Of a stretch of DNA of 27,613 bases, positions 24,097 to 25,492 are shown in pieces (position 1 is the stretch's first letter; each line of letters starts with the position of its first letter). Position numbers and translations under genes: made by a program. The notes below the pieces were generated by a model that did not search any database, was not told where the DNA came from, and saw nothing but the letters and a program-made list of their open reading frames with translations. Origin of the DNA: a virus; IMG/VR virus record IMGVR_UViG_3300003858_000001, positions 1 to 27,613 of that record; one strand, given 5' to 3'.

Positions 24097-24531
24097 ATGA
24101 AACCAATTTTGTTCTTTTTTGCCTTATTGGCATGTCTATCCCTGACGTTATGTTCACTGGCGTCACAGGAAAAGAAAAGTGAACCTCATTGTAAGGTAGT
24201 AGGAGTTGAATTAATGACTCATTTCAGCGCGGCTGCTATGTGTAATTATGCCAATTTTGATTACCTTACAGTATCAAACCCTAGTATAAACCCGGTAGAC
24301 TTGAATTCTTTGGTTGACGTTGGCGAAATCTCATTACGAGAGCCTGCGAAAACCAATTGGGGAAATAAATCAGGAATTGATATTTCTACTATATACCTAC
24401 AAAATAACGAATTTGGTGAATATCGGAGTTCCTTGAATAACAAAGATAATAGGCCGACAGACTTAGAAAATAGACATGGACTATCTTGCGGTGGAGCAGA
24501 ACTCCTGTATAGCCAGGACCAAATGAGATAG
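24097..24531 (+). CDS. Secreted or lipid-anchored moron-like protein of unknown function (144 aa)
   Basis: 144 residues with a clear signal: MKPILFFFALLACLSLTLCS. The LLAC at 10-13 could be a lipobox, leaving Cys13 as anchor; cleavage near SLAS (20-23) by signal peptidase I is the alternative. The mature part has C32, C49 and C131, the last in GLSCGGAELLYS. No known domain. It is the only exported protein in the replication half besides the lysozyme, preceded by a 67-base gap and ended by a strong terminator, the arrangement of a phage moron. Possible roles: superinfection exclusion, lysis accessory, host-surface factor; none is shown. Confidence 0.7.
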   Translation: MKPILFFFALLACLSLTLCSLASQEKKSEPHCKVVGVELMTHFSAAAMCNYANFDYLTVSNPSINPVDLNSLVDVGEISLREPAKTNWGNKSGIDISTIYLQNNEFGEYRSSLNNKDNRPTDLENRHGLSCGGAELLYSQDQMR

Positions 24532-24560
24532 CCCGGTATGTGTGGTATCGGGCTATTTTT
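24528..24560 (+). terminator. Intrinsic terminator after the secreted protein gene
   Basis: ATAGCCCG (24528-24535) pairs with CGGGCTAT (24549-24556); the stem extends by four further U-A/G-U pairs to a GTGTG loop (24540-24544), followed by TTTTT (24556-24560). The left arm starts at the gene's stop codon (TAG 24529-24531). G/C-rich stem plus U tract is a canonical rho-independent terminator, and the best one in the window. Confidence 0.85.
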
Positions 24561-24592: not shown

Positions 24593-24600
24593 TACATTTG
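24593..24600 (+). promoter_or_regulatory. Promoter -7 box before the replication initiator leader
   Basis: TACATTTG, exact to the TAnnTTTG consensus. No clear TTTG at the -33 position, but T-rich sequence is there. Located between the terminator and the initiator's leader, so transcription would start near 24607. The same octamer is at 26143-26150 before the DnaB-like helicase gene. Confidence 0.6.
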
Positions 24601-24606
24601 CAGTAC

Positions 24607-24721
24607 AGTGGTTAGGCTCTCAACCTAGAAACCATAAAGACATTATAGAAGCTTAGTAAAGAAAGATGTGAGTTGAGAGCCATGTCCTATTTACTGAGCT
24701 TTTCTTATTTAAACTGAACCT
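24607..24721 (+). ncRNA. Structured 5' leader with pseudoknot-type interlocked stems
   Basis: Stem 1: GGCTCTCAAC (24615-24624) with GTTGAGAGCC (24672-24681), perfect 10 bp. Stem 2: AAGCTTAGTAAA (24649-24660) with TTTACTGAGCTT (24690-24701), 12 bp with one G-U. The left arm of stem 2 lies between the arms of stem 1 and its right arm lies beyond, which is an H-type pseudoknot order (loops about 24, 11 and 8 bases). Stem 2 is followed by TTTTCTTATTT, a U-rich tract, and 20 bases later by the initiator ATG. This could be an attenuator/riboregulator of initiator expression, a stand-alone small RNA, or a DNA-level element. Structure is from the sequence; function is inference. Confidence 0.6.
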
Positions 24722-25492
24722 ATGCAACGTGATTTTAAAGGTATTTGGATTCCTGCCAATATATGGCTATCCAAGGAACTGACTTTACAAGAAAAGGTAT
24801 TCTATGTGGAAATACAATCCTTAGACAACGGAGAAGGATGCTATGCCTCAAATGCCTACTTTGCAGAGTTCTTTGAGGTAAGCATTAATAGAGCCGGCTT
24901 TATAATTGGCAGATTAGTATCCAAAGGACTTATACAACGAACAACCTCAAGTAAAACACCTGGGAAAAGACTGTTGAAAGTAAGTAGAAAAAAGGCAAAG
25001 AAACCTGCCGCTCTTCCTGTAATGACACGTACGAAGCATAGGAAGGAGGAGACGATGCCTAAAGGAGGAGGGGACCGATGCCTAAAGGAGGAGACCCCCC
25101 GATGCCTAAAGGAGGAGGATAATAATACAGTATTTAATAATACAATTAATAAAAATTTAATAAAAACTTTTTCAAATAACTATACTTTTTTTAAAATGGA
25201 ATTTTCCACTATATGGACAGAAGAGTTCATCCCACTTAAGAAAAAGAAAAAGGCATCCGTGACGGAAAGAGCATTAACTTCCCAATTAAATAAAATACAA
25301 ACCTATTCCAAAGGGGATTATGATACCGCCTTGCAAATTTTAGAAAGAAGTGTTAATGCAGGTTGGGCTGATTTTTATGCGCCGCCGGTCACACAGAAAT
25401 ATAAACCTCAATTAGCACAGGCCGGAAGCAGAGCGTCGGGTCATTTTAAATCTACAGAAAATTATTCACGTATAGATAAGGTAATACACTAA
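24722..25492 (+). CDS. Replication initiator (lambda O-like, winged helix)
   Basis: 256 residues. N-terminal winged-helix domain (about 1-85): FKGIWIPANIWLSKELTLQE, then the recognition part YASNAYFAEFFEVSINRAGF and LVSKGLIQR. A flexible middle (about 95-160) is encoded by the iteron and A/T-rich region. The C-terminal domain (about 165-256) has KKKKASVTERALTSQLNK and DYDTALQILERSVNAGWADF, the DnaD/replisome-organiser-like end that contacts the loader. It binds the origin in its own gene and recruits the DnaC-like loader encoded next. Stop and loader ATG share one base (TAATG). Likely controlled through the structured leader. Confidence 0.85.
   Translation: MQRDFKGIWIPANIWLSKELTLQEKVFYVEIQSLDNGEGCYASNAYFAEFFEVSINRAGFIIGRLVSKGLIQRTTSSKTPGKRLLKVSRKKAKKPAALPVMTRTKHRKEETMPKGGGDRCLKEETPRCLKEEDNNTVFNNTINKNLIKTFSNNYTFFKMEFSTIWTEEFIPLKKKKKASVTERALTSQLNKIQTYSKGDYDTALQILERSVNAGWADFYAPPVTQKYKPQLAQAGSRASGHFKSTENYSRIDKVIH
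25032..25117 (+). repeat. Iterons of the replication origin
   Basis: CGATGCCTAAAGGAGGAG occurs exactly at 25053-25070, 25076-25093 and 25100-25117; a degenerate copy (CGAAGCATAGGAAGGAGGAG) begins at 25032. Start-to-start distances are 21, 23 and 24 bases. Because 23 is not a multiple of three, copies 1 and 2 code different peptides (MPKGGG versus CLKEE), so conservation acts on the DNA. Confidence 0.9.
25032..25200. other. Probable replication origin inside the initiator gene
   Basis: Four iterons (25032-25117) followed by an A/T-rich tract (about 25118-25200, with runs such as TTTAATAATACAATTAATAA). Iterons followed by an unwinding element inside the initiator gene is the arrangement of lambda ori in O and of related phages. 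The initiator would bind the iterons and open the A/T tract, then the loader and helicase from the next genes would load. Confidence 0.75.

Follow-up and report, generated by a model that had tools for sequence, protein, structure and literature searches.

A terminator-like hairpin with a kissing loop in operon leaders of Bacteroidota phages, an apparently undescribed RNA switch

SAM-II and preQ1 are H-type pseudoknot riboswitches, in which interlocked pairings occupy a short 5′ leader. In antisense attenuators of the pT181 type, a replication initiator has a leader with a terminator and with hairpins that kiss; these systems depend on an antiterminator and on an antisense RNA made separately (PMC3753616). 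A regulatory element lies within the terminator hairpin itself in the HMP-PP (thiS) riboswitches (PMC6478431). In phage HK022, early operons begin with the putRNAs, leaders of ~70 nt with two stem–loops that affect RNA polymerase in cis; putL lies just downstream of PL (PMC9378689). Among Bacteroidota, Flavobacterium tunes initiation through structure close to the start codon (PMC6847099), and 5′ leaders have been surveyed in F. psychrophilum, in a paper that nowhere uses the word prophage in its main text (PMC9723704).

The window, a 27,613-nt stretch of a virus (IMG/VR record IMGVR_UViG_3300003858_000001), carries a structured leader 5′ of its replication initiator, with the following features.

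24530–24560, + strand: intrinsic-terminator-like hairpin AGCCCG...CGGGCT (GC stem 24530–24554) and T-run at the end of the preceding gene, from sequence
24593–24600, + strand: Bacteroidota −7 promoter box TACATTTG, from sequence, with consensus and register from PMC6847099
24608–24635, + strand: hairpin 1 (HP1), a 9-bp stem (24608–24616/24624–24635) with a 3-nt bulge and the loop CUCUCAA (24617–24623), from folding
24615–24624, + strand: kissing element a, GGCTCTCAAC, with the 7-nt loop CTCTCAA as its core, from sequence, scanner and loop-swap control
24636–24647, + strand: A/U-rich single-stranded linker, from folding; such a linker recurs in relatives
24648–24702, + strand: hairpin 2 (HP2), with outer stem b/b′ (24648–24660/24690–24702), internal loop GAAA/CUA, inner stem (24665–24670/24681–24686) and apical loop (24671–24680), from folding and scanner
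24672–24681, + strand: kissing element a′, GTTGAGAGCC, with core TTGAGAG (24673–24679) in the HP2 apical loop, from scanner, loop-swap control and folding
24700–24710, + strand: U-rich, terminator-like tract 3′ of HP2, from sequence and from the T-run that follows HP2 in 13 of 13 loop-E loci (below)
24722–25492, + strand: replication initiator (HTH_36; PHROG replication initiation O-like), the first downstream gene, from profile assignments

Since the G of the Bacteroidota housekeeping −7 box sits at position −5 (PMC6847099), the predicted transcript should start at ~24605, directly 5′ of the structured leader. Elements a and a′ form 10 perfect base pairs, and b and b′ (AAGCTTAGTAAA, 24649–24660, with TTTACTGAGCTT, 24690–24701) form 12 with one G–U, extendable to 13. 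The pairings interlock in the order a–b–a′–b′ and are followed by an interrupted U-tract, TTTTCTTATTT; the initiator ATG lies 19 nt beyond the HP2 stem. Interlocked pairs of this length arose in 0 of 300 dinucleotide shuffles of 24601–24721, although some pair of at least 7/7 appeared in 81. The first-pass annotation had drawn attention to both pairings, to the terminator and promoter upstream of them and to a second stem resembling a terminator 5′ of the initiator, and all three observations hold, with termination at HP2 being deduced from the U-tract alone. A standard terminator scan did not call HP2 in the window because its loop exceeds the length allowed by the rule.

The same annotation described the leader as a pseudoknot in which stem 1 forms first and traps part of the loop of stem 2. 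The minimum-free-energy fold consists instead of HP1 and HP2 (−28.5 to −30.1 kcal/mol), the single-strand fold lies 2.7 s.d. below shuffles, and the best nested fold that is made to contain the 10-bp a/a′ stem is ~9 kcal/mol less stable. Every base of the 7-nt HP1 loop can pair with UUGAGAG of the HP2 apical loop, so a/a′ would most simply be a loop–loop (kissing) contact between two coexisting hairpins, and no rival of HP2. Pseudoknot-type pairing is thus present, but its first stem is better read as a kiss. The small GGTT/AACC hairpin once proposed to compete with stem 1 overlaps HP1 and is better drawn as the HP1 stem, whose loop is the kissing partner. We regard the two-hairpin kissing structure as nearly certain. 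The inner stems of its kissing hairpins set it apart from H-type riboswitches, as does the lack of a ligand-site consensus. With Rfam 15 covariance models at gathering thresholds, neither the window nor 18 further loci gave a match, which agrees with the earlier failure to recognise a riboswitch class, and at E values up to 10 the window leader gave only chance-level miRNA and snoRNA matches.

We scanned for four features: the box, a stem with a U-tail, a complementary segment upstream and a hairpin enclosing that segment. The window leader was the top match (score 27.8) among 30 in 740 kb, and 400 shuffles of the window gave no score above 18.6. At a score of at least 20 there were 20 matches in 740 kb, many of them homologous, against 0.1 per shuffle. 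Reversed sequences gave five matches, one at 22.4; hairpins survive reversal, so the shuffles are the cleaner control. A scan of 400 kb of chromosomes gave three low-scoring matches, a soft control given the higher GC content and the scarcer boxes of these genomes. The near-threshold matches in L140, on the + strand of L089 and on the minus strand of the window at 25381 are probably due to chance.

Neither phage records nor the exact stem-1 pattern yielded a close DNA relative of the window leader, and its class is assigned by architecture rather than by covariation among its own orthologues. Homologues of the initiator N-terminal domain led to distant phages of other hosts that lack the leader, and DnaC as bait gave no relatives. 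Searches with the primase and DnaB-like helicase recovered three colinear relatives, L042, L044 and L045 (helicase 65–67% identical; primase 67–74% over the parts present), whose initiators keep the C-terminal part and have a different N-terminal domain. Each has an HP1-like hairpin and a U-tailed hairpin 5′ of the initiator, with sequences that differ from those of the window; the U-tailed hairpins of the set read AAGTCTTTGGG-GAGTA...GAAA-CCCAAGGGCTTTTTT, AAGCCTTTAGA-GAGTA...GAAA-TCTAAAGGCTTTTTT and AACTTTTGGG-GAGTA...GAAA-CTCAAAGGTTTTTTT. From the T-run to the initiator ATG there are 10–15 nt in L044 and ~22 nt in L045, and in L042 the distance to the homologous ORF start is ~90–100 nt. The L042 kiss is only 5 bp, no better than swapped pairs. 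Two relatives without a gap 5′ of the initiator, L049 and L050, have no leader.

The initiators of the window (24722–25492), L042 (8191–9000), L044 (1235–2017) and L045 (3310–4308) have the C-terminal part in common, while their N-terminal DNA-binding domains differ, each accompanied by its own repeat sequence. Within the window gene, 25053–25118 holds three 19-nt direct repeats, CGATGCCTAAAGGAGGAG(G/A), spaced 23–24 nt apart, which are probable origin iterons, as in lambda O; the colinear relatives have unrelated repeats at the same place. The N-terminal DNA-binding domain and the origin thus seem to be swapped as a unit. Between primase and initiator, 24097–24531 encodes a small secreted or lipoprotein-like protein that is kept in L042 (37% over 67 aa), with a C-terminal LSCGG motif in both.

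The leader architecture, namely a promoter, HP1, an A/U linker, HP2 with a kissing loop, a U-tract and an ATG ~17 nt on, is present in the colinear relatives and in phages of Flavobacterium, Cellulophaga and Winogradskyella. A BLAST search with one leader reached the isolated phages Muminvirus (Flavobacterium), Cellulophaga phi18:3 and Winogradskyella Peternella_1, and a protein search reached Flavobacterium phage FCL-2. Their kisses differ: GTGAGACG/CGTCTCAC in filifjonk9-1 and GTGGAACG/CGTTCCAC in mumin6-1 (both Muminvirus), CTTCTGAC/GTCAGAAG in phi18:3 and CATCCAC/GTGGATG in FCL-2. In Peternella_1 (L088 12500–12640), a 17-nt a/a′ abuts b′ in an interlocked pseudoknot like that of the window, 5′ of a KilA-N gene. 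Distances from the box are nearly constant at most loci (a at 11–24, b at 46–54 and the end at 92–103 nt), with a/b/end at 14/46/103 nt in the window, 13/47/100 in Muminvirus and 12/47/97 in phi18:3. With later loci included, scores of at least 17.4 comprise 31 distinct elements and 26 distinct kisses; a few are probably chance. At least 20 different kiss sequences occur with this architecture.

A second pattern, called loop-E, was drawn from HP2 of L042, L044 and L045 alone and required neither T-run nor kiss. It found 13 IMG/VR loci, and in all of them a T-run directly follows HP2, with an ATG 12–21 nt further. The RNA upstream holds 6 nt that can pair with the HP2 loop (TGGTGG/CCACCA, GTGCAG/CTGCAC, CCGACA/TGTCGG). 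In its strict form the pattern was absent from 395 genomes from the phylum group of a Bacteroides MAG, so the loop-E leader is no common chromosomal element. These T-runs bear on the idea that a kissing complex right at the 5′ terminus simply protects the message and insulates translation, leaving the start codon free and terminating nothing. HP1 does begin a few nucleotides from the predicted 5′ end, the spacer to the ATG is A/U-rich, and the Flavobacterium precedent of structure-tuned initiation (PMC6847099) is in keeping with such a role. A T-run directly after HP2 in every element, including those found without requiring it, is needless for a stabiliser, and we consider this explanation improbable.

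The window leader belongs to the class by its TAnnTTTG box, complementary loops in HP1 and in a U-tailed HP2, and an ATG shortly after; its HP2 internal loop, GAAA/CUA, is not the GAGUA/GAAA of the loop-E subclass and places it in a different one. Non-helical GAGUA/GAAA is conserved in one subclass and occurs flipped, as GAAA/AGUA, in another; GAAA on the 5′ side and AGTA on the 3′ side of HP2 are seen on the minus strands of L155 (1939) and L105 (3384). Such conservation would suit a kissing complex that, together with its internal loop, offers a site at which a metabolite or phage protein decides termination in all leader operons. Single phages may carry several leaders with different kisses (L062, L069 and L155), resembling a regulon, and the HMP-PP riboswitches provide a precedent for an aptamer within a terminator stem (PMC6478431), though they lack a kissing hairpin 1, precede metabolic genes and have a known ligand. 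Against a binding site of this kind, the conserved internal loop is absent from the window and Muminvirus classes and, not being universal, provides no shared binding-site consensus; the downstream genes have only DNA metabolism and homing in common. We therefore see a riboswitch or protein-binding leader as rather unlikely.

Base pairing is well supported in relatives. Across nine aligned Muminvirus-type leaders, 99.6% of the alignment cells are paired, and two-sided compensatory changes occur in 12 of 29 pairs, including four of the eight kiss pairs; none of 500 shuffles reached this level, and structures slid along the alignment collapse. This is the covariation check that the first-pass annotation had proposed on related phage leaders, and its result for the kiss covers the Muminvirus subclass, no close orthologues of the window leader having been found. 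A blind pattern consisting only of promoter and HP1 stem gave 91 matches, 57 of them distinct. Ten distinct matches had a U-tailed stem 17–25 nt downstream, and all ten showed a 6–8 nt loop complement that matches elsewhere lacked. When loops were swapped between leaders, complementarity fell from 7.45 to 4.88 nt. Conservation extends jointly to HP1, to both stems of HP2 (inner and outer) and to the kiss, for the most part through compensatory changes, so a loop–loop complex fits better than the either/or switch implied by stem 1 trapping stem 2.

If the two-hairpin complex bound the transcribing polymerase and acted like HK022 putRNA, terminators, HP2 included, would be ignored. As in put (~70 nt, two stem–loops, putL just downstream of PL; PMC9378689), two adjacent hairpins spanning about 75–110 nt are kept just after a promoter at phage operon starts, and the AGUA/GAAA internal loop is conserved in one subclass; action in cis on RNA polymerase, demonstrated for put, is our inference for the leader. 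However, loop–loop pairing has not been described for put, which has no U-tract end of its own whereas HP2 is terminator-like, and the apical loops here vary freely provided that pairing holds. The host phylum is different as well, and the sequences are unrelated. A put-like RNA is thus unlikely.

The genes behind the leader are varied. They include initiators of unrelated families (O-like, DnaD-like, PrimPol/DUF3987 and HTH_36), DUF6291 and KilA-N proteins, helicases, a DNA methylase, an ATPase and, several times, HNH/NUMOD-like endonucleases; some of these names were read directly from the sequence. This variety identifies an operon leader for DNA-metabolism genes, not one confined to initiators, and lends no support to the control of copy number suggested earlier. 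It also weakens a scheme in the style of plasmid copy-number attenuators, in which terminated leader RNA kisses nascent leaders in trans. Loop–loop pairing and an initiator target do recall pT181 (PMC3753616), but in the phage leader both loops lie in one RNA, which favours action in cis, and no antiterminator pairing was found. The window holds no further copy of the 8–10 nt kiss elements, although the contig may be partial. Dose control in trans is accordingly very improbable.

Several small genes have their own shorter kissing leader, at L069 5664 (+) and 1189 (−), L059 3923 (−), L062 12329 (+) and L071 184 (+). Behind these leaders, most of which have a UGAU/UGAU-like internal loop, stand HNH/NUMOD-like endonucleases and other small genes, and free-standing homing genes seem to travel with them.

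We favour, with reasonable though not strong confidence, an attenuator that acts in cis on the transcription of phage DNA-metabolism operons and in which kissing tunes the terminator. A host-type promoter would start the RNA just 5′ of HP1, and ~40 nt later HP2 would be made, an intrinsic-terminator-like hairpin with its U-tract. Its apical loop would pair with the HP1 loop, joining both hairpins in a single kissing complex while RNA polymerase arrives at the U-tract. This contact may set how well HP2 folds at the polymerase, and with it the fraction of polymerases that terminate ahead of the first gene, in the window the initiator; both termination at HP2 and the effect of the kiss on it are parts of this proposal. 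During infection the balance could be shifted by a factor from the phage or the host, or by the polymerase's own state. We lean towards a kiss that stabilises HP2, with termination as the default and read-through as the regulated state, but this direction is a guess, hardly firmer than a coin toss.

Covariation in relatives supports the view that both hairpins, the HP2 inner stem and the kiss are held together, and this joint conservation points to a state that holds terminator hairpin and kiss at once; the roles of promoter and U-tract are read from sequence. The complementarity of arms b and b′ to the leader upstream of them does not exceed that of swapped pairs, and no classical antiterminator is therefore apparent. 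The short ATG ORF expected of a leader peptide is missing from a large fraction of the leaders and differs in length among the others. Taken together, these results favour an attenuator with a kiss-tuned HP2. More tentatively, and with somewhat less than even confidence, we propose a widespread and undescribed RNA switch of Bacteroidota phages. Operons for DNA metabolism and homing endonucleases would carry at their 5′ end a self-kissing terminator, which would dispense with an antiterminator stem, control the terminator hairpin at the polymerase by tertiary contact and possibly answer a phage-wide antitermination signal.

In open-licence papers, to which our search was limited, we found no description of a kissing terminator leader. 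Kissing loops and terminator leaders are known parts; what appears new is that they are combined and that Bacteroidota phages share the combination so broadly, and the leader seems to represent an RNA switch not described before. The timing of gene expression in Bacteroidota phages is little described. The leader is compact and common, and its presence in isolated phages with cultured hosts (FCL-2, Muminvirus, phi18:3 and Peternella_1) makes it directly testable. If the proposal is true, a terminator would be controlled by a loop–loop tertiary contact in place of a competing stem, and the leader provides a search rule for operon starts and homing genes in uncultured Bacteroidota phages.
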